Shown in pieces: positions 7,201 to 42,115 of a stretch of 64,000 nucleotides of DNA; the stretch's first letter is position 1; each line of letters starts with the position of its first letter. The translations under genes were made by a program, and so were the position numbers. Source of the stretch: an uncultured Lachnospiraceae bacterium (GTDB lineage: Bacteria; Bacillota; Clostridia; Lachnospirales; Lachnospiraceae). The stretch lies in assembly GCA_944383265.1 (NCBI GenBank), contig CALWOX010000002.1, positions 186,001-250,000 on the forward strand. Reading direction: 5' to 3'. The notes under the pieces are model-generated. The model did no database searches, was not told the DNA's origin, and saw only the letters and a list, made by a program, of their open reading frames with translations.

Positions 7201-7303
7201 TATTTTTGCACTAATGACGATACTCTCTATAGCTATAATGCTGCTTCTTTATCTGAAGCTTTTCGGCGAAAGACTTATTATAAAAACCTTAAGAAAAAAT
7301 TAG
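4277..7303 (+). CDS. Sortase-anchored surface protein with acidic glycine repeats
   Basis: A 1008-residue secreted protein. A signal peptide covers about residues 1-30. Residues 395-470 look like an InlB B-type (Listeria-Bacteroides) repeat, with FTGWYDD and KLTARW. From about 475 to 770 there are ten or so acidic units, the clearest being PGxDxxxGTEDD (for example PGKDGIPGTEDD, PGEDEIFGTEDD), which suggest a calcium-binding array. A Gly/Ser/Asn-rich wall-spanning stretch follows. The C-terminus has an LPxTG-like signal, IPKTGD (964-969), then a hydrophobic segment and a basic tail. It has a good ribosome site (AAAGGAG). The ligand is unknown; no sortase gene is in the window. Confidence 0.85.
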   Translation: MTDLKKSGRFLACALASCLIVDSSMTSFAENLSRQKNAVHLTDSTQAVKRSSSALRTASSSSAKKPESEKKNEAENEEISLIGTRSSEEDIEVTPVVTDSNYKFTVRDSPDGSEIWIDVTDWYTSANVTYNSTSFKHKECSSAFMLLFNDQKINSIGSTKFKGKYSYFSSSGNSDVSGSFKRTVNLSMGSTTVSGKKNSAELSSRDGGNFTLYNMYMAGSGMYNVAFVDCPGDYWDGNHQNTIEHPRTNDSCTFYAGPADVSNSSQITLKWTVTPISDDDLTNEKPLTRNCFRIKIAKKQFTDKGIRLTGIKPISFFGKDPEVIPVENNTILKDVSYSVKGVSSAQNATVLYKETKKAKDGKEVTETPRAITGYTTPAQLKFNAKEGYEAVFKYTPISYSISYSGLEEISGDNPNPASYTVEDDIILEAVSRNDGFNFTGWYDDKNSRVLKISKGSTGNKKLTARWSADIKDNNDGTYTYNSGSNKGKRFTYGADGEAGTDDDHEVSIGDDGAWGSSDDCFVLNTDGNHKVFKGKDNRFLTPESDSDDFYDNSRYTKDTYVKPGKNKYFEMDEKAPLKSDKDDELWWNGPDHVTGSDDDMIIKDFKHNSSGNLYVSAGSYIEYEDESILKPGKDLIFGTEDDLHIKFDESDDPYIENDSGTVTRPGADDEFLTEDDEVFLPGKDGIPGTEDDIKVYPGEDEIFGTEDDYYINDDGNKVFPGEDNKFGSDDDLMQKGEDIFKPGEDGIFGTEDDEKVEKPDPAPPSEEEEPEKNEGSDGGNSGGNSDNSGNSESNGSGDDNNSGNGDNGSGSGSSGGGSSSGSGHGSGGSGHSSGGSSGGSGGPNMSDNSYVDSGPGATSGADANTGAASGNEPNSGTEISKSEAQSEYKSETQSGTTQLSGTETSKSDSLSTSDKGNKSEWKGFSSDEVIEKVFSGKNSEKAGSKAAADSKEKNPASESALPSIPKTGDESSSALIFALMTILSIAIMLLLYLKLFGERLIIKTLRKN

Positions 7304-7340
7304 TTTTTATGAGCAATATATATATGTTATATTAGTAAAC

Positions 7341-9557
7341 ATGCGGAAAAGTGTGAACAGAAAACAAATAATTATAATATCTCTTATATCCCTACTGCTG
7401 GCTGTAACCGCAGTGGGGATAGATGTTTGCTTGGAAAACGGTATTTTCAGCAAAGCTGAAACTGCTGCGCCGGAAGAGGTCTCCACTACATCGGAGGCTT
7501 CAAAGGCTTCCACAGGATATATTTATTCCGAGAAGATCAGCTCAAAGCTCACAGACATAGAGGACGAGCCCTATGTTGAGGGACCTGATGTTTTGAATCT
7601 TGCCTATTATTATCCCGAGGGAGCGGATACTTCCGATGTAATGAATTCCTTTGCGGGAAATATCTATAAGAATCTTGCCGTAAAGGATGCGGATTATTTC
7701 TCGACTATCTATGATATGGGCGATGGAGATCCCCTTACAATGGCAAGAGAGCTGGGGTATGATTCATCAAAGGTAATGGGAAAGTATAATCCTACAGTTC
7801 CAGGGCAGGATCCGGAAAATCCGGCTACATGGTCTGTGAACAGATTCAAAAATGTAAACGTGGCATTTTATGACGGAGACGGAAACAGGATCAACGGCTA
7901 CTCAAATGTCAAAGAAATAATGGCTATGGCGTCAGTATATTCTTACTATCATGATATGACAGATGCCGAGGCTATGGAACAATATGCAAACGAGCTTTGG
8001 AGTCGCTCCCACAGCTATACTATAAGTATAGGAGACGTGTATTACTGCAGCGGATGTCTGAATAAAACAATTCAGGACGAGGCGAGAGAGGCCATAGAGC
8101 AGGAACGCAGACAGATTGAGATAGAGGAAGCCCTGGCCCAAAACACAGCAGCTTCTTCAGGTGACGCTTCTTTGTCTTCAGTCGTATATCCGGAAGTGGA
8201 TTTTACTATAGAAGAAATCGAAAACGGAACAGAGGCCCCGAGGATTTTATATGCACCTACGGAGAGTGAGTCGGAAAGTACTTCGGCAGAAAGCTCGGTA
8301 ACCCCCACACCCGGTTCTGAGAGCGAGTCACCTGCTCCTCAGATAATTCATCATGTTTCCGAACCGGAAGACACCGAAAGCAGTACTGCAGAAACTACAG
8401 CGACATCAGCAATCGTTACAGAGTCTGATTCAATGCAGTCAGCTCAGACTGCTGCGGCTGATTCACCTACGATAGAGCTGCAATCCGCAGCAGCAGGGAG
8501 TGACGGCCTCAGCTACAGCGGAGTACCTTTGGACAGTATGTTCATGGCTATGTCATCAAATGATATAGGTATTTCTATAGAGAATATAGGAAACACTCCG
8601 GCGGATACTTCCTCAGAAACTGCGGCTGCCACGGAAGCAACATCAGCAGAAGCCGAGCCTGTAAATACAATAATCAGTCCGGGAGCCAATATGGCAGGAA
8701 GCCCTGAATCCACAGAAGCTTCCGCATATGTCTCTTCGGAGAACGAAGTCGGTGAATCAACTGCTGCAGACACTAACATCGAAACAACAGAAGCTCTTAC
8801 CGAGACTGAGGTTCAGGATGTCTCTGAAATAGTCGGAGACTGCCCCGGACATATAGATTTGTATATAACAGTAACACTTTATGGAATTGATGATATTAAC
8901 GGCCTTATGGCTATTGATCCTATCGGAAACGATCCGGCCAACTTCAATGATCGTTGGCAAGGCTGGACAGAAGAGGCAAAAGCCTCTGCAAGAAGCCTTA
9001 ATTCGGCGGATTGGTTCAAGAGATACGGACTTACTATTTCTGCTATAAATGTAAGAAATCCCTTGAGCGAGTCAGAGATCAACACATATCTTGACAGGAT
9101 GCCTGCGGACATTTCTCAGCAGAGAAAGGATATAGTCAGCTTTGCTCTTCACTCTGTAGGAAAGGTTCCGTATTATTGGGGAGGAAAGCCCAATGGACCG
9201 GGGTATGAGGCCAACAGCTTTGGAGTATTAATGTCCCCTGATACAAAGGGCAGAGTATTAAAGGGACTTGATTGCTCAGGTTGGATAAATTGGGTATACT
9301 GGTCTGTTTTGGGAACATCGCTTCCCGGAGAGAGTACAGGAACTCTTATAGGATGCGGTGAGAGGATACAAAGAAGCGATCTGAAGCCGGGAGATATAAT
9401 GGTAAGGATAGGAGCCGAGGCCCATGTGGTGATGTTTATCGAATGGGCCCAAAACGGAAATATGGTAGTCGTGCACGAGACAGGAGGAGCAATCAATAAT
9501 GTAACTGTCTCCGAGATGTCTGCCGACTGGCCATATTACAGGAAACTTATAAACTAA
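7341..9557 (+). CDS. Membrane-anchored NlpC/P60 cell-wall hydrolase with long Ser/Thr/Glu linker
   Basis: A 738-residue protein with an N-terminal membrane anchor (about residues 10-28). The middle, about 250-495, is low-complexity Ser/Thr/Ala/Glu and probably spans the wall. The C-terminal 140 residues are an NlpC/P60 domain: PYYWGGKPNG, the catalytic Cys in LDCSGW (about 644), His in EAHVVMF (about 694) and a further His in VVHETGG. These enzymes cut peptide bonds in peptidoglycan stems. There is no clear ribosome site before ATG 7341, and it follows the surface protein by only 37 bases, so the two may share a transcript. Confidence 0.85.
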   Translation: MRKSVNRKQIIIISLISLLLAVTAVGIDVCLENGIFSKAETAAPEEVSTTSEASKASTGYIYSEKISSKLTDIEDEPYVEGPDVLNLAYYYPEGADTSDVMNSFAGNIYKNLAVKDADYFSTIYDMGDGDPLTMARELGYDSSKVMGKYNPTVPGQDPENPATWSVNRFKNVNVAFYDGDGNRINGYSNVKEIMAMASVYSYYHDMTDAEAMEQYANELWSRSHSYTISIGDVYYCSGCLNKTIQDEAREAIEQERRQIEIEEALAQNTAASSGDASLSSVVYPEVDFTIEEIENGTEAPRILYAPTESESESTSAESSVTPTPGSESESPAPQIIHHVSEPEDTESSTAETTATSAIVTESDSMQSAQTAAADSPTIELQSAAAGSDGLSYSGVPLDSMFMAMSSNDIGISIENIGNTPADTSSETAAATEATSAEAEPVNTIISPGANMAGSPESTEASAYVSSENEVGESTAADTNIETTEALTETEVQDVSEIVGDCPGHIDLYITVTLYGIDDINGLMAIDPIGNDPANFNDRWQGWTEEAKASARSLNSADWFKRYGLTISAINVRNPLSESEINTYLDRMPADISQQRKDIVSFALHSVGKVPYYWGGKPNGPGYEANSFGVLMSPDTKGRVLKGLDCSGWINWVYWSVLGTSLPGESTGTLIGCGERIQRSDLKPGDIMVRIGAEAHVVMFIEWAQNGNMVVVHETGGAINNVTVSEMSADWPYYRKLIN

Positions 9558-35328: not shown

Positions 35329-36366
35329 CTAAGCATTCCCCTCATTTCCGTCCTTAAGAAGCTCCTTATCGGCTGTGAGCATCTCGGATATCTTGTCATT
35401 TATTCCAAGCTTTATAAAGCTCTCGCACTGAAGTATTGCTGTCGATATCTCAGCCGAGGTGGAATTTCCATGGCATTTTACCACCAATCCCTTGCAGCCC
35501 AAAAGTGGCGCTCCGCCGTACTGCGAAGCGTCAAAGGACTTAAGAGCTTCCTTTAATGCGGGCTTTATCATGAGAGCCCCAAGCTTCGATCTGGTATCTC
35601 TCATAAGACCTGACTTAATAATATGAAGGAAGGTGGAACCCAATCCCTCATAAAATTTCAATATGACATTCCCTGTGAATGCGTCACAAACCACAACATC
35701 AGCAGAATCTCCCGCGGGGATCTCTCTTGCTTCTATATAGCCTTGGAAGTTTATATCTTTAAGTCTTTTCATCAGAGGAAGGGTCTCCTTTAAGAGAGCG
35801 TTTCCCTTCTCCTCCTCAAGTCCGATGTTTACAAGCTTTACAACAGGGTCCTTTATCTTGCAGACATTTTCCATGTATATTGCGCCCATTCTCGCAAACT
35901 GTAAAAGCCATTCGGGCCTTGCATCCACATTGGCTCCGCAGTCTACCAAAAAGCATACCCCCTTCTCTGTGGGTATGAGTGTTGCAAGGGGCGGTCTCTC
36001 AACTCCCTTAAGCCTTCCGACTATAAGCTGTCCGCCTGCAAGTATTGCTCCTGATGAACCTGCCGAGACAAAGGCATCAGCCTCCCCCTCCTTCACAAGT
36101 TTCATCCCCTTTACTATCGATGAATCCTTTTTCTTTTTTATCGCCATTACAGGAGACTCATCAAGGCCTATGACTTCTCTTGCGTCAAGACCGGAAAGTC
36201 TTTCCTTATCATAGCTGTAATTTGAGAGCTCGGAGTTAATCACTTCCTCAGGGCCTGAAAGTACAAGGCTTATATCCTTACTTTTTTCAAGTGCCTTTAT
36301 AGCTCCCTTTATTATTTCAGAAGGGCTGTTATCGCCGCCCATCGCGTCCAAAACGACTTTTATCAT
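35329..36366 (-). CDS. plsX: Phosphate acyltransferase PlsX
   Basis: A 345-residue PlsX: VVLDAMGGDNSPSEIIKGA at the start, FVSAGSSGAILAGG, PLATLIPT, DCGANVDARPEWL and LLGCKGLVVKCHGNS. It makes acyl-phosphate for phospholipid synthesis with PlsY. It begins a plsX-rnc-smc-ftsY transcript; neither rpmF nor the fab genes, its usual neighbours, adjoin it. Confidence 0.96.
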   Translation of the reverse strand: MIKVVLDAMGGDNSPSEIIKGAIKALEKSKDISLVLSGPEEVINSELSNYSYDKERLSGLDAREVIGLDESPVMAIKKKKDSSIVKGMKLVKEGEADAFVSAGSSGAILAGGQLIVGRLKGVERPPLATLIPTEKGVCFLVDCGANVDARPEWLLQFARMGAIYMENVCKIKDPVVKLVNIGLEEEKGNALLKETLPLMKRLKDINFQGYIEAREIPAGDSADVVVCDAFTGNVILKFYEGLGSTFLHIIKSGLMRDTRSKLGALMIKPALKEALKSFDASQYGGAPLLGCKGLVVKCHGNSTSAEISTAILQCESFIKLGINDKISEMLTADKELLKDGNEGNA

Positions 36367-36630: not shown

Positions 36631-36701
36631 GCAGATATGGTGCATCGGTAACACGTTAGCTTCCCAAGCTGAAGAGGCGGGTTCGACTCCCGTTATCTGC
36701 T
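36631..36701 (+). tRNA. tRNA-Gly(CCC)
   Basis: A 71-base cloverleaf. Acceptor GCAGATA pairs with TATCTGC; the anticodon loop is TTCCCAA, giving CCC; the T loop is TTCGACT. The discriminator is T and no CCA is encoded. It lies alone between plsX and the YedE operon, on the opposite strand to both. Confidence 0.93.
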
Positions 36702-36718
36702 CTCGTTTGATTTAAAGG

Positions 36719-36750: not shown

Positions 36751-36757
36751 GTACCAA

Positions 36758-36790
36758 AAGAGCCCGCTGTATCAAGTTTCACGGGCTCTT
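36758..36790. terminator. Probable terminator facing the YedE operon
   Basis: AAGAGCCCG (36758-36766) pairs with CGGGCTCTT (36782-36790) around 15 bases. Plus-strand continuation is CTTATCTTTTTT and minus-strand continuation TTGG after the arm's own Ts, so it may stop transcripts from either side, chiefly the operon ending at 36875. Confidence 0.55.
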
Positions 36791-36874
36791 CTTATCTTTT
36801 TTGATAAATATATTTTCCTACACCATTACACCATGCTTTATCTGCCGAAGATTTATTCTCGTACGGAAGACAGG

Positions 36875-37111
36875 CTAAAACATTATCTCCTGCATATCCT
36901 CAAAATCTATATTTTTTTCCTTGAGGAATGTTGAAAGCTCCTCTCCTGTTCCGGGTTCAGAACACCAAGCAAGACCGCATCCTGCTGAAAGCTGTCTGGG
37001 TACGGGAATCATCCTTCCCTGAATATTTTCAGCTATACATACCTTCTCACAGGCTATCGCATCAGCTGTTGTATGAAATGTGGTAATAAGTCTAAGTTTC
37101 TTCTCTCTCAT
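36875..37111 (-). CDS. DUF3343 protein, putative sulfur/selenium carrier
   Basis: A 78-residue DUF3343 protein starting MREKKLRLITTFHTT at ATG 37111, with GAGGGG upstream; the in-frame start 15 bases earlier is less likely. Cysteines at 21, 25, 45 and 50 include the family box PRQLSAGCGLA. The family is predicted to bind or carry sulfur or selenium and commonly accompanies YedE and TusA/YedF proteins. It is the last gene of the operon. No biochemical role has been firmly shown that I can recall. Confidence 0.8.
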   Translation of the reverse strand: MREKKLRLITTFHTTADAIACEKVCIAENIQGRMIPVPRQLSAGCGLAWCSEPGTGEELSTFLKEKNIDFEDMQEIMF

Positions 37112-37190
37112 TAAAGTTCCCCTCAAGATGTTTTTGAAATCTATAGAATTTTATCAAATATAAGCGATTTTGTCATCTTGAATATTATCA

Positions 37191-37400
37191 TTACTTTTTG
37201 ATTATTACCTCAAATTCCGATCCTACAGCATGTACCTCCGCGCTTCTGCCCTGTGATGCCGCATATTTTTCGACATTCTTGTAGCAGTGAGGTTCTGAAA
37301 CCAATACCTTTATATCCTCATTTCCATGACTCTTTAAAGCCTCCGCTGTCATCATTACAGGCTCCGGGCATGAAAGCCCTCTGGCATCTACTTCGTACAT
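37191..37400 (-). CDS. TusA-family sulfurtransferase-like protein
   Basis: A 69-residue protein starting MYEVDARGLSCPEP at ATG 37400, with GAGGTG upstream. Cys11 lies in the family's C-P-x-P box, the persulfide-carrying site. The fold ends with FEVIIKK. TusA relatives pass sulfur (or perhaps selenium) between a desulfurase or transporter and an acceptor. Its place between the ABC binding protein and DUF3343, downstream of yedE, suggests it accepts what the operon imports. Confidence 0.88.
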   Translation of the reverse strand: MYEVDARGLSCPEPVMMTAEALKSHGNEDIKVLVSEPHCYKNVEKYAASQGRSAEVHAVGSEFEVIIKK

Positions 37401-37474
37401 AAAAATCACCTCATTGAATTAATATTAAACTTTTAACCTTTTTCGGAAACTCTCCTTTTAATGATCCTGTGTTA

Positions 37475-38632
37475 TTATTTCCAGCCTTCAAGAGAATTTA
37501 CATTATCCACATTTACGAGAGTAAGAGGAAGATAAACATTACTGTCAAAGGTCTCTCCTTCATTGAGCATTACAGCCATCTGAAGAGCGGCCTTTGTATA
37601 GCGTGCGCTTGAATAGGACATTGAGCCTGTCATCTTTCCTTCCTGAATAGCAGCCTTCGCATCGTCTGTAAAGTCAACTCCGTAAATAAGGACTCCGTCT
37701 ACGCCTTCCGCCGAAAGAGCCTCGACAGCCGCCAAAGCCATTACATCATTACAGCAGAATATACCCTTAAGGTCAGGATACTCTGTAATGAGTGCCTTTG
37801 TTGCGTCATATGCAAGTGTTGCGTCCCAGTCACAGTTCTGTACGGCTACAAGCTCATAGCTGTCATTTGCTTCTATGGTCTCTGTAAAGCCTCTTGTACG
37901 GCCTTCACTCTGGCCTGCTCCTGCAAGTCCCGCAAGGACTGCAACCTGTCCTCCTTCAGGAAGCCTCTCCATCATATCGTTTGCCACAGTCTCGCCCTGC
38001 TCCGCAAAATCTACAGTTATAGTTGCATCGAGATAGCCGCCCGCTTCAGCCAAAGCCTCTGTGTCGACTCCGGGGCCGAGGTTTATTACCTTGACGCCGT
38101 TTTCATTACACTTTATTATTCCGGGGATCAGGTTTGTTCCGTCAATAGGAGAAACGATGATAACGTCGTAATCCATGTCTGCCATGGTCATAAGAACGTC
38201 AAGCTGAGATGCTGTATCTCCCTCTGTAGTTCCTGTCTGAACGTCTATGGGAACTCCAAGCTCCTCGCCTGCGGCAATATAGCAATCCTTCATAGTTACC
38301 CAGAATGGGTTGGTAAGAGATATAACTACAGCGCCCACCTTGATCTCTCCGAAGTTTTCGGGCATAGGGCCGATCTGCTCCTCCATGGACTTATCAAAGT
38401 CAGCATAAAGCTGCTTTACCGTATCAGATATCTCGCCTGCGGTCTCCTCCGGATTTGCCTCTGTCTGTGCGGCTTCCGTCTCTGCAGCAGTCGTCTCCTC
38501 CTCGCTCTCTGCAGCGGCAGCCTCTGTAGTTTCAGTCTGAGCCTCAGTCTCAGCAGTTTCAGATGAGGCCGAACAGCCCACAGCACCAAGTACCATAGCC
38601 GCCGAAAGTAAGCATGCTAAAAATTTTTTCAT
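37475..38632 (-). CDS. Ribose-type ABC transporter substrate-binding lipoprotein
   Basis: A 385-residue exported protein starting MKKFLACLLSA, with a lipobox-like AVGC, then an acidic Glu/Thr/Ala-rich linker of about 60 residues. The rest is a type I periplasmic binding fold of the RbsB class (AVVISLTNPFWVTMKDCY, VIIVSPIDGTNLIP, GIFCCNDVMALAAVEAL, IYGVDFTDDAKAAIQEG). The family binds sugars, autoinducer-2 and related polyols. The start has GGGAGG. The ligand is unknown; the operon context suggests a sulfur- or selenium-bearing compound. Confidence 0.88.
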   Translation of the reverse strand: MKKFLACLLSAAMVLGAVGCSASSETAETEAQTETTEAAAAESEEETTAAETEAAQTEANPEETAGEISDTVKQLYADFDKSMEEQIGPMPENFGEIKVGAVVISLTNPFWVTMKDCYIAAGEELGVPIDVQTGTTEGDTASQLDVLMTMADMDYDVIIVSPIDGTNLIPGIIKCNENGVKVINLGPGVDTEALAEAGGYLDATITVDFAEQGETVANDMMERLPEGGQVAVLAGLAGAGQSEGRTRGFTETIEANDSYELVAVQNCDWDATLAYDATKALITEYPDLKGIFCCNDVMALAAVEALSAEGVDGVLIYGVDFTDDAKAAIQEGKMTGSMSYSSARYTKAALQMAVMLNEGETFDSNVYLPLTLVNVDNVNSLEGWK

Positions 38633-38675
38633 AACCAATACCTCCCTTTTATCGTCTGTTGAAGTTGAATATGTT

Positions 38676-39635
38676 TTATCCTATACGGGCTCTCCTCTCC
38701 CTCAGCTCCGCAATAACGACAGCGCAAAGAAGCATAGCTCCTGTTATGAATTGCTGATAGTATGAGGATACACTCATTATAGTCAAGCCGTTTCTTATAA
38801 GCCCCATCAAAAACACAGCGATAACCGTGCCGAAAAGGCTGCCTTTACCTCCGTGGAGTGCGGTGCCTCCCATAATTACCGCACATATGGCGTCCATCTC
38901 CATATTCAATCCGGCATTCGCCTCGGCGCTGTTCAGTCTGGCCGAAACTATAATTCCTGATACTGACGCCAAAAATCCCATAAGGGCAAAGACCGATATC
39001 CTGTATTTCCATGTCTTTACTCCACATCGCTTTAATGCCTCAGGATTTCCTCCCAAGGAAGCGATGTAGCTTCCCCATTTCATAAAGAAAAATACAGGTA
39101 TCATTGCAATAATGATCACAAATGCTGCTGTCACTCCTGATTCCATTCCGAAAATATCACCGCATCCGATTTCCCTGAAGGACTCGGGAAGCTTGGTGAC
39201 GGGTATTCCCTCTGTAACCATAAGAGACAGCCCTCTGTACATATACGAGGTCGCAAGTGTTATTATAAGCGGATTTATCCTTGTAGCATAAACCAGTACT
39301 CCATTTATCACTCCCATAACAGTGCCTGATAAAAGTCCCAATAATATACAAAGAGCAATAGGAAGCTCAGCCTTAAGCGATATAGCGGTACATATCGCAC
39401 TGAATGAAAGGATAGACCCTACAGAGAGATCTATAGCTCCTGACGTTATAATGCACATCATTCCTACCGCTAAGATCATGCGATAGGAGTTGGCTTCAAG
39501 TATATTTACAACATTTTTTAAAGAGTAAAAGGACTCTGTACTTATGGAGAGAAAGACGGAGATCATAAGGCAAAAGCATATAAGCAAAACAGGCGACGAA
39601 AACTCTTTTTTTATATACCCTAATATCTTCTCCAT
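38676..39635 (-). CDS. Ribose-type ABC transporter permease
   Basis: A 319-residue protein of the RbsC/BPD_transp_2 family with eight or more hydrophobic segments. Family boxes: ITSGAIDLSVGSILSFSAI, GVLVYATRINPLIITLATS, and MDAICAVIMGGTALHGGKGS (the EAA-like loop). The start MEKILGYIKKEF at 39635 has GGAG five bases before it; an in-frame ATG at 39689 would overlap the ATPase gene by 17 bases and is an alternative. Confidence 0.9.
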   Translation of the reverse strand: MEKILGYIKKEFSSPVLLICFCLMISVFLSISTESFYSLKNVVNILEANSYRMILAVGMMCIITSGAIDLSVGSILSFSAICTAISLKAELPIALCILLGLLSGTVMGVINGVLVYATRINPLIITLATSYMYRGLSLMVTEGIPVTKLPESFREIGCGDIFGMESGVTAAFVIIIAMIPVFFFMKWGSYIASLGGNPEALKRCGVKTWKYRISVFALMGFLASVSGIIVSARLNSAEANAGLNMEMDAICAVIMGGTALHGGKGSLFGTVIAVFLMGLIRNGLTIMSVSSYYQQFITGAMLLCAVVIAELRERRARIG

Positions 39636-39672
39636 CTTATCTCCCATATATTTAAGTCTCTTGGCCGAGATG

Positions 39673-40419
39673 TCAAAATATCCTTTCATCCTCTCGCCTT
39701 AAGATAAGCTCTCTCAGTTCCTCAGGTGAGGTGTCTGACACCGCTGTATCCACAAGTACTTCGCCCGATCGCATTACATAAATATGGTCCGCAATATCAA
39801 ATACCTGCTCCATGTTGTGGCTGACTATAAGTTGAGCTATGCCTTTCCTTTTAAGCATTCCCAGCATCTCCATGGTCTTTGCGCTCTCCTGTATGCCCAT
39901 AGCCGCCGTAGGTTCATCCAGCAAGAGCAGCTTCGCAGGTCTTCTCAAAGCTCTTGCAATGGCAAGTCCCTGCCTCTGGCCTCCCGACAGATTTCTCACA
40001 GGCTCGGAAAGATCAGGTATTCTTACCTTTATTTCCTCAAGCAGAGCTGCGGCTTCTACTCGCATGGCTTTTCTGTCAAGAAAGCCGCATCTCGTTATCT
40101 CATCTCCGAGGAAAATATTTTCAACGCTGTTTTTAAAATTATCAAGAGACAGATCCTGATACACTGTCCTGATACCCGCGTTTATCGCCTGAGCTACAGA
40201 AAGCCTGTGATAGCTGTTTGTTCCTATTTTTATGATACCCTCATCCGGCTCAAGGCTTCCCGAAAGTATCTTTATAAAGGTGGACTTTCCCGAGCCGTTA
40301 TCGCCTATTACAGCTGTGATCTTTCCTTCAAATGCCTTTATTGTGACCTTTTGAAGGGCCTTTATGTGATTAAAGCTCTTGGATATATTTTCAGCGGAGA
40401 GTAAAATTTTATCTGACAT
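39673..40419 (-). CDS. Ribose-type ABC transporter ATPase, single domain
   Basis: A 248-residue ATPase: Walker A GDNGSGKST (39-47), signature NLSGGQRQGLA, Walker B LLLLDEPTAAMG. RbsA-type ATPases usually fuse two such domains (about 500 residues); this is a single-domain version, as in FrcA-like transporters. It follows yedE by 41 bases and precedes the permease in the normal rbsA-C-B order. Confidence 0.92.
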   Translation of the reverse strand: MSDKILLSAENISKSFNHIKALQKVTIKAFEGKITAVIGDNGSGKSTFIKILSGSLEPDEGIIKIGTNSYHRLSVAQAINAGIRTVYQDLSLDNFKNSVENIFLGDEITRCGFLDRKAMRVEAAALLEEIKVRIPDLSEPVRNLSGGQRQGLAIARALRRPAKLLLLDEPTAAMGIQESAKTMEMLGMLKRKGIAQLIVSHNMEQVFDIADHIYVMRSGEVLVDTAVSDTSPEELRELILRREDERIF

Positions 40420-40460
40420 TTCCGGTCCTGTATTTAAGTGCCGCGTAAATTTCGCTGCAG

Positions 40461-41534
40461 CTATTTGTTTTTCTTTGGCATAAAGCCGATTATAAATGTT
40501 ACTATAATGCAGATTATAAGTGTTATCTTTCCTGCAGTTCCGGGTCCTCCTACAGCCTCTGCTGATGCGGCTGATGAGGCAAGTCCGAAGTTATGGCAGA
40601 AGGCAGCTCCCACAAAAAGGCCGAGGAAAGTAACCGCTGCATCTGATGAGCCCTGACCTGCAAGTATGATCTGTCTTAAGGGGCAGCCTCCTGCAAGAAC
40701 GCCTGCAAAGCCTACAGCATAAAGTCCGAGGAAGTTCCAGATATGCTGAGCATGAGCTACAGGCTGTCCGTTAAAGCCTAAAGTGAACTTTCCGAGAGCT
40801 ATGTTTCCCACAAGCATAACCACAAAGAAGCCTGCAAGTATTGCAAAGAGATCGAGATTACCCATAAGGATAACGTCTCTGATTCCGCCTATAGTACACA
40901 TCCTTATTCTCTGAGCTACTATTCCGAATATGATTCCCGCCAAAAGAGCAAGGATAACAGGCGCATGCATAGATCCGGGGCCTGACTCACTGAACGCAAA
41001 AAGTGCAGGCACAAAAATTGAAAGTGCAAAGAGAAGCACCCAAGCTATAGGAAGAACAGCTCCCGAAAGAGCTGAGGTCTCGTGTGAGCGTCCCAATGAA
41101 AAGCCCTTCTTTAACGCAAGTGTTCCTGTGAATATACCTGCAACAAAGCCTACAGCTCCTACATAGGCGTTGAGATCACCTGCTGACATACGTATTATCA
41201 TTCTTAAAGGGCAGCCCAGAAATACAAGAGCTCCGACCATCATGATAAAGCCTAAAATAAAACGTGTCATAGGTGAAGATCCTGCAGTTGAACGGTACTC
41301 CTTTGTGACAAGAGAAATCACAAAAGCACCCAAGAGAAGACCTGCTATCTCAGGTCTCATATACTGAACGATAGCCGCTTGATGAAGCTTCATAGCTCCT
41401 GCCGAATCACGAATAAAGCAGGCAATACAGAAGGCCATGTTTCCGGGGTTTCCTGTTGCGGCAAGTATAACCGCAAGTACCCCGAGGATTGCTCCCGCAA
41501 TGAGGAGCGTTACTTTGTTTTTTGCTAAATCCAT
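40461..41534 (-). CDS. yedE: YedE/YeeE-family transporter, putative selenium or sulfur importer
   Basis: A 357-residue membrane protein with about nine or ten segments, starting MDLAKNKVTL at ATG 41534 (GGGG upstream). Conserved cysteine boxes of the family are all present: FCIACFIRD (Cys36, Cys39), LGCPLRMIIR, MCTIGGIRD and GGCPLRQIILAGQG. YeeE relatives import thiosulfate together with a TusA-like partner, and YedE is tied by gene context to selenium use. It is the first gene of the six-gene operon. Confidence 0.88.
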   Translation of the reverse strand: MDLAKNKVTLLIAGAILGVLAVILAATGNPGNMAFCIACFIRDSAGAMKLHQAAIVQYMRPEIAGLLLGAFVISLVTKEYRSTAGSSPMTRFILGFIMMVGALVFLGCPLRMIIRMSAGDLNAYVGAVGFVAGIFTGTLALKKGFSLGRSHETSALSGAVLPIAWVLLFALSIFVPALFAFSESGPGSMHAPVILALLAGIIFGIVAQRIRMCTIGGIRDVILMGNLDLFAILAGFFVVMLVGNIALGKFTLGFNGQPVAHAQHIWNFLGLYAVGFAGVLAGGCPLRQIILAGQGSSDAAVTFLGLFVGAAFCHNFGLASSAASAEAVGGPGTAGKITLIICIIVTFIIGFMPKKNK

Positions 41535-41589: not shown

Positions 41590-41618
41590 AATTTATCACC
41601 TACAATATTTACTGTCAA
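41590..41618 (-). promoter_or_regulatory. Promoter of the YedE-ABC-TusA-DUF3343 operon
   Basis: Minus-strand TTGACA (41618-41613), 17 bases, TAAATT (41595-41590), leaving about 50 bases to the yedE start. The rest of the 41535-41932 gap is AT-rich and holds only the rpmF terminator; I see no riboswitch. Confidence 0.6.
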
Positions 41619-41932: not shown

Positions 41933-42115
41933 TTAGTCCTCTACCTTAACTATCTCTCTCTTGTTGTAGCTTCCGCAGCTCTTGCACACCATGTGAGGCA
42001 TAACAAGTGCGCCGCACTTACTGCACTTTACAAGATTGGGTGCGCTCATCTTCCAGTTAGCTCTGCGGCTGTCTCTTCTGGCTTTTGATGATTTATTCTT
42101 AGGACAGATTGACAT
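41933..42115 (-). CDS. rpmF: 50S ribosomal protein L32
   Basis: A 60-residue L32 of the zinc-binding type: MSICPKNKSSKARRDSRRANW, then CSKCGALVMPHMVCKSCGSYN with four cysteines. The upstream DUF177 (yceD) gene that normally precedes it is missing, and plsX, which normally follows, is 5.5 kb away. Confidence 0.96.
   Translation of the reverse strand: MSICPKNKSSKARRDSRRANWKMSAPNLVKCSKCGALVMPHMVCKSCGSYNKREIVKVED

Follow-up and report, generated by a model that had tools for sequence, protein, structure and literature searches.

Why would a sugar-type ATP-binding cassette (ABC) importer be encoded in the midst of genes for selenium use? The question is raised by a 64,000-nucleotide stretch of DNA, here the window, from an uncultured Lachnospiraceae bacterium (assembly GCA_944383265.1, contig CALWOX010000002.1, positions 186,001 to 250,000), in which six minus-strand genes with short gaps follow each other in the order yedE, ABC ATPase, permease, binding lipoprotein, TusA-like protein and DUF3343 protein (Table 1). 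According to passages of PMC9312934, PMC11097638 and PMC13188914 (2022, 2024 and 2026), selenium transport still lacks any identified system that is dedicated or of high affinity, and we found no report of this importer together with selenium in the open-licence literature. We present the ABC system here as a good candidate for such a long-missing dedicated importer, whose ligand would be an organic selenium compound.

Results

The importer co-occurs with selenium genes

One scan of named genomes returned 23 loci with relatives of the binding protein; L096 and L097 (24% and 34% identity) were excluded from the ortholog counts, which leaves 21 (L and G numbers are our own handles for loci and genomes). 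The 21 orthologous binding proteins are 43–85% identical to that of the window. Two of them, L075 and L076, belong to relatives in the genus, and the titles of the other records name Oscillospiraceae, Pseudoflavonifractor, Clostridia, Clostridiales, Mageeibacillus, Maledivibacter, Bacillota, Dethiobacter, Syntrophomonas, Pelotomaculum, Desulfoscipio and one metagenome-assembled genome labelled Desulfobacteraceae, whose copy of a PsuG-like putative glycosidase described below, here called X, is 96.6% identical to the X of Dethiobacter. L086 and L087, like L088 and L090, are near-copies, so that each pair represents at most one lineage. The first-pass annotation of this locus, made from the sequence alone, had proposed co-occurrence with selD and yedE as a check, and both genes turned out to accompany the importer. 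selD scored over its cut-off in 20 of the 21 ortholog genomes versus 89 of 391 genomes of the class (Fisher p about 1e-11); in records L075–L083 plus L085 alone the count is 9 of 10 (binomial p about 1e-5). Seleno-YedE was over its cut-off in 24 of 25 importer/glycosidase genomes (the 21 ortholog genomes plus G469, G334, G247 and G038), versus 24 of 150 genomes of the family to which the window belongs.

Ties to two particular selenium traits were tried and set aside. The selenouridine trait does not explain the pattern, as SelU was over its cut-off in just 10 of 26 importer/glycosidase genomes and gave no match over the cut-off in the window's genome. A tie to selenium-dependent molybdenum hydroxylases was demoted to part of a rival explanation: YqeB was over its cut-off in 19 of the 26 genomes, including that of the window, versus 47 of the 89 selD-bearing class genomes (Fisher p 0.075, with four genomes belonging to both sets); at E 1e-50 the class count is 48, all 48 with selD.

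Genes around the orthologs were tallied in the stretches fetched for the 21 loci, some of them shortened by contig ends. ATPase, permease and binding protein stand together in 19 loci (the L081 stretch begins inside the ATPase), and X lies within the stretch in 16 (L076–L084, L086–L088 and L090–L093). Selenium genes (yedE, yedF, tusA, DUF3343, csd or selD) are present at seven (L075, L076, L087, L088, L090, L092 and L093), with yedF split over two open reading frames (ORFs) in L087 and YedF over its cut-off in L092 and L088. HGD-D or double-cubane genes occur at six (L087, L088, L090, L092, L093 and L094), the HGD-D protein of L092 being over the cut-off as a double-cubane reductase, and methyltransferase, corrinoid or activase genes at four (L087, L088, L090 and L095). 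Taken together, 9 of the 21 loci carry genes of at least one of these three kinds, while a small control of other CUT2 importers (L058, L059 and L060) showed none of them. Weak matches were left uncounted (Csd in L081, 33 bits; HGD-D in L089, 33 bits; CobW in L080, 124 bits). In L086, L087, L091, L092, L094 and L095 the gene after that for the binding protein or X encodes a short iron-sulfur protein; the one of L091 bears a distant likeness to epoxyqueuosine reductase (TIGR00276, 69 of 200 bits), which those of L086 and L087 match only weakly.

At the distant Bacillota locus L093, a shortened relative of the binding protein and X abut yedE-tusA. At L093:6789-7919 a reverse-transcriptase ORF (PF00078 on 7290-7916), preceded by a short ORF, lies directly upstream of the binding-protein ORF.

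A related importer is encoded in G038 (L057 and L120). Its genes, with a lipoprotein 36% identical, stand with PfkB, two ADP-ribosylglycohydrolases and X, and an opposite-strand gene set adjoins them, converging on X. That set encodes MtaA/CmuA-like methyltransferases (one exceeds its cut-off, while a full-length one and two short ones fall below), a corrinoid protein (205.8 of 215.3 bits), an activase (461 of 800), a CobW-related protein (79.4 of 180) and a double-cubane reductase (512 of 350). The three methyltransferase-type proteins examined retain a His-x-Cys motif and a later Cys, a zinc site tied to sulfur or selenium substrates in passages of PMC10418091. It is possible that these genes together encode a complete selenoglycoside pathway.

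Origin of the gene block

The window's genome (2.3 Mb, 97.5% complete) carries selD with one in-frame TGA (366 bits, G000:C2:289777-290706); selA, selB, csd and a yedF-like gene lie on the same contig as the window, and YqeB is encoded as well. Some 16 kb ahead of the window, an HGD-D protein (PF06050) resembling double-cubane reductases is encoded at C2:168589-169797 (L064:2589-3797).

Within the genus, an ortholog of the binding protein is found in 3 of 25 genomes (86% identity in the other two) and seleno-YedE in 8; all three importer genomes are among these eight (hypergeometric p 0.024). In all three the order is yedE, ATPase, permease, lipoprotein, tusA and DUF3343, followed by plsX, so that the adjacency of the ABC genes to the other genes recurs in two further genomes, which answers the question raised in the first-pass annotation of whether it would be seen elsewhere. 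L076 has X (261 amino acids, aa) between lipoprotein and tusA, and three more ORFs (121, 245 and 95 aa) separate its tusA from DUF3343. This insert (L076:7786-9120), unique among the three, includes the 121-aa protein, which is cysteine-rich, and a SLAC1-like membrane protein.

Genomes of the genus with yedE and no importer show another order: L116, L119 and L042 have a contiguous selA-selB-yedE-tusA-DUF3343-csd-yedF, and L117 has selD-yedE-tusA-DUF3343-csd. In the window's genome, where this junction was read, selB and csd are separated by 56 bases, while the yedE-tusA-DUF3343 trio surrounds the ABC genes elsewhere. In the YedE tree, seven rows, those of the importer genomes and of L116, L119, L042 and L117, are united in a single starred clade (99/99) in which L117 branches first; the importer rows make up a starred group, as do the non-importer rows, and the sister relation of the two groups (92/76) is without a star. 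The fifth importer-free genome with yedE, L118, has a different YedE placed elsewhere in the tree. Joint acquisition of yedE and the ABC genes was rejected, as the tree puts yedE inside the genus. Because selB abuts csd in the window's genome, and because of the position of yedE in the tree, it seems that the native trio changed its place and was joined to the ABC genes; we infer functional coupling of the two. The split of plsX from rpmF, both of which do flank the block, had been taken in the first-pass annotation as a sign of gain by insertion; this origin is half right and needs correction, in that the ABC genes are likely the gained part, while yedE groups with the genus in the tree and the trio was apparently moved.

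Importer type and binding pocket

With a Peripla_BP_4 lipoprotein, a BPD_transp_2 permease and an ABC ATPase in one operon, the ABC genes are predicted to encode an importer of the CUT2 type that is intact and has a single-domain ATPase. CUT2 ATPases are usually, though not universally, fused double-domain proteins of about 500 aa, and single-domain forms such as FrcA are known exceptions. The window's system shares with RbsABC and AlsABC the lipoprotein and permease families and the fold of the allose-binding protein, and differs from their usual fused form by its 248-aa, one-domain ATPase, in whose translation motifs that we take to be Walker A, LSGGQ and Walker B could be read. The lipoprotein remained below the NCBIfam equivalog cut-offs for the allose-binding model (188 of 335 bits) and RbsB (111.6 of 337). 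Its structural model (predicted local distance difference test, pLDDT, 85) has allose- and ribose-binding proteins as the nearest solved structures, with template modelling scores, by target length, of 0.90–0.92 to 9jwt, 8wl7 and 1rpj, and the sequence is 29–30% identical to natural allose-binding proteins.

The pocket has changed in a consistent way. Column counts in a profile alignment, in which the L093 row has no N-terminal positions, show I at the position of K9 of the allose-binding protein in 21 of 21 rows; in 22 of 22, D91 corresponds to G, E92 to P, a late Gln to Y and one Ala to C294. Numbered on the window's protein, G186, P187, C294 and Y340 are found in 22 of 22 rows, and I104 in all 21 having the position. 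N13, W16 and R151 are retained together with a Trp, an Asn and an Asp, and F15 is F in 16 rows and Y in 5. Unlike RbsB and AlsB, then, the orthologs have I, G and Y in place of K9, D91 and the late Gln, which presumably are polar sugar contacts in the allose-binding protein. Such a pocket would fit a sugar-like group; one face would offer it fewer polar contacts, and there would be space for a larger substituent.

The partner enzyme X

X belongs to PF04227. A model of the L077 protein (pLDDT 93.8) matched 4gik, 4gil, AlnA and TM1464 in Foldseek, and is structurally closest to PsuG (E 1.2e-16); Lys133 and Asp116 align with a Lys and an Asp of PsuG that we assume to be catalytic and metal-binding, respectively. 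X thus shares the fold and the Lys position of PsuG, but is set apart by its absence from the window's genome and by the scores of its own profile, which gave 3 strict matches (317.6–342.1 bits) among the 391 class genomes, the next ones reaching at most 98 bits. All three strict-match genomes have selD, in a sample not chosen for selenium. In two of the three, L112 and L113, the neighbourhood of X includes a gene for a PnrA-type binding protein together with ORFs for an ATPase and a permease (two ORFs intervene in L112); a PnrA-type nucleoside importer may be a second importer type paired with X. The third, L111, has X with two ADP-ribosylglycohydrolases, PfkB and more ABC-type ORFs at a contig end. 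All this suggests a ribosyl compound as the probable substrate of X.

The block in the window

All six genes of the first-pass annotation are present at its coordinates, and its family assignments are borne out by TIGR04112, PF00005, PF02653, PF13407, PF01206 and PF11823, as are the CPEP box of the TusA-like protein and the four cysteines of the DUF3343 protein. The TusA-like protein corresponds to the N-terminal domain only of YedF and scores 45.4 bits against the YedF model TIGR03527, below its cut-off of 110; that model outscores the TusA models, though below every cut-off. The promoter at 41618-41590 matches the consensus at 10 of 12 positions and is a plausible candidate, such sites being abundant by chance (18 promoter-like sites in 5.5 kb, versus 10.7, standard deviation 3.6, in shuffles). 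The terminator claimed near 36790 corresponds to a stable hairpin with a 13-base loop, absent from the listing of a consensus scan that takes loops of 3–8 bases. As to regulatory RNA, just two tRNAs in the window attain Rfam gathering scores.

Table 1. Positions of the genes and signals of the block and of its flanks in the window
Feature	Position	Strand	Evidence or remark
yedE (seleno-YedE, TIGR04112), 357 aa	40461..41534	-	NCBIfam 476.8 bits, cut-off 200
Single-domain CUT2-type ABC ATPase, 248 aa	39673..40419	-	PF00005 101.5 bits
CUT2-type permease, 337 aa	38676..39689	-	PF02653 130.8 bits; start overlaps ATPase end by 17 bases
Predicted substrate-binding lipoprotein, 385 aa, lipobox Cys20	37475..38632	-	PF13407 174.8 bits
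TusA/YedF-N-like persulfide (or perselenide) carrier, CPEP box, 69 aa	37191..37400	-	PF01206 60.8 bits
DUF3343 / Se_S_carrier protein, four Cys, 78 aa	36875..37111	-	PF11823 76.5 bits, gathering cut-off 25
Sigma-70-like promoter candidate	41590..41618	-	TTGACA-17-TAAATT, 10/12 consensus match, with TG
Terminator-like hairpin after DUF3343	36756..36792	-	12-bp stem, -19 kcal/mol, z -4.3
rpmF	41933-42115		flanks block
plsX	35329-36366		flanks block
tRNA-Gly between operon and plsX	36631-36702	+	not noticed in the first-pass annotation

Discussion

Our results make it probable that this importer serves selenium metabolism. The first-pass annotation had suggested for the ABC system a possible role in sulfur or selenium handling; the selenium side of that proposal is now well supported by the selD and seleno-YedE counts, while the ligand that it names, perhaps a thio- or selenosugar, is a putative one. 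We put the probability that the importer takes up an organoselenium glycoside or nucleoside, probably a (methyl-)seleno-glycoside, at about one half. In such a system the lipoprotein would capture the organic selenium compound, and permease and single-domain ATPase would import it; selenium would be freed inside the cell and passed, with the TusA-like and DUF3343 proteins as carriers, to SelD, which would then feed the synthesis of selenoproteins and seleno-cofactors. The freeing step might be performed in many relatives by the PsuG-like glycosidase, and in some by a double-cubane reductase or a set of corrinoid demethylase proteins, whereas YedE may handle a flux of selenium (or sulfur) across the same membrane, in a direction still conjectural. 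The broader idea, that this is the first dedicated binding-protein-dependent selenium importer, through which anaerobes, including those of the gut, scavenge sugar- or nucleoside-linked and perhaps Se-methylated selenium molecules, for example the methyl-selenosugar that the host excretes, cleave them by the PsuG-like glycosidase and, where present, the corrinoid demethylase, and pass the selenium to SelD, is tentative, and we consider it doubtful in this complete form.

Several of our own observations weigh against a selenium-compound importer. The X profile found no candidate in the window's genome, and import there must therefore feed another freeing route; no corrinoid-methyltransferase genes were found in the window and four adjacent 20-kb stretches, and 12 of the 21 ortholog loci have no selenium, double-cubane or corrinoid marker in the stretch fetched. 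The presence of X beside nucleoside-type importers also fits plain nucleoside salvage. L093 has a binding-protein ORF without its first part and no ATPase and permease at the locus, and its value as a clean independent case is weakened by that incomplete ORF and by the reverse-transcriptase ORF upstream. G178 has no selD, and G184 no seleno-YedE, over the cut-off. We acknowledge that the co-occurrence tests treat genomes as independent against backgrounds unmatched for phylogeny, and that their p-values overstate the association, for this reason and because selD may be more frequent in deep-branching lineages than in the sample of the class; they were also computed for this binding-protein family alone among CUT2 families. 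In Methanococcus, finally, five transporter loci including yedE were deleted, and passages of PMC11097638 report that not one of them proved absolutely necessary for the use of any of the selenium sources tried.

The same evidence has to be weighed against other readings. The system could be an ordinary salvage importer for nucleosides or C-nucleosides such as pseudouridine, linked to selenium through selenium-dependent molybdenum hydroxylases acting on nucleobases. The likeness of X to PsuG, with Lys and Asp at what we take to be the functional positions, its company of PnrA-type binding-protein and permease genes in L112 and L113 and of PfkB kinases and ADP-ribosylglycohydrolases in L057 and L111, and the presence of YqeB in 19 of 26 importer/glycosidase genomes, the window's included, would all be accounted for. 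YqeB is, however, not clearly enriched over selD-bearing genomes of the class, the window's organism has no X, and the position of the importer inside yedE-tusA-DUF3343 would be left unexplained, so that we hold this reading to be unlikely. A conventional importer for sugars of the ribose or allose type, placed by chance between yedE and tusA, would agree with the fold of the lipoprotein and its identity to natural allose-binding proteins; it is the least probable of the alternatives in our view, given the genome-wide co-occurrence with selD and yedE, the selenium genes adjacent at 7 of 21 ortholog loci, the apparent relocation of the trio and the invariant change at sugar-contact positions.

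TusA, DUF3343 and the wider YeeE/YedE family serve sulfur too, and the block might therefore serve sulfur, not selenium, with an importer for a thiosugar or a compound of the methylthio-ribose type. Such a reading is improbable: yedE exceeds the cut-off of its selenium-specific model more than twofold (476.8 vs 200), and selD and seleno-YedE are nearly constant companions of the importer, even though passages of PMC5322559 report DUF3343 in SelD-lacking organisms as well, and passages of PMC10418091 link non-selenium corrinoid clusters to methionine salvage.

The candidate selenium-compound importer can be compared with what has been described. The seleno-YedE/YedF/DUF3343 block of Lin et al. 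2015 (PMC5322559), in passages linking YedE and DUF3343 to selenium, shares with the window yedE, a SirA/TusA-like gene, DUF3343 and a selD-bearing genome. It differs in that the window has an ABC importer between yedE and tusA, and the term 'ABC' occurs nowhere in the text of that paper. For Methanococcus, passages of PMC11097638 report higher expression under selenium depletion of yedE, TusAD, several genes for ABC binding proteins and an operon that probably encodes the methyltransferase SdmABC, the sole significant uptake phenotype being that of SauU with selenocyanate. Clusters of MtaA-like, corrinoid and activase genes are argued, in passages of PMC10418091 that include an in vitro assay, to demethylate methyl-selenides; 'ABC transporter' and 'YedE' do not occur in its text. 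The type I mlp clusters of that work are defined, in the passages concerned, by Mlp2/Mlp3 types, and the genes of our relatives are likened to them at the level of the MtaA/CmuA-like family. A few importer relatives adjoin MtaA/CmuA-like methyltransferase, corrinoid or activase genes (4 of 21) or double-cubane genes (6 of 21), as does that of G038, but none of these genes is present at the window's own locus.

As for a natural ligand, mammals excrete 1beta-methylseleno-N-acetylgalactosamine, a methylated selenoglycoside, as described in passages of PMC5372522. This compound is a possible ligand for carriers of the importer living in the gut, and not an obvious one for those from groundwater or sediment. 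If the importer does take up host selenosugars, it would link the selenium excretion of the host to its gut bacteria; in any case, it offers a concrete and testable candidate for dedicated selenium transport.

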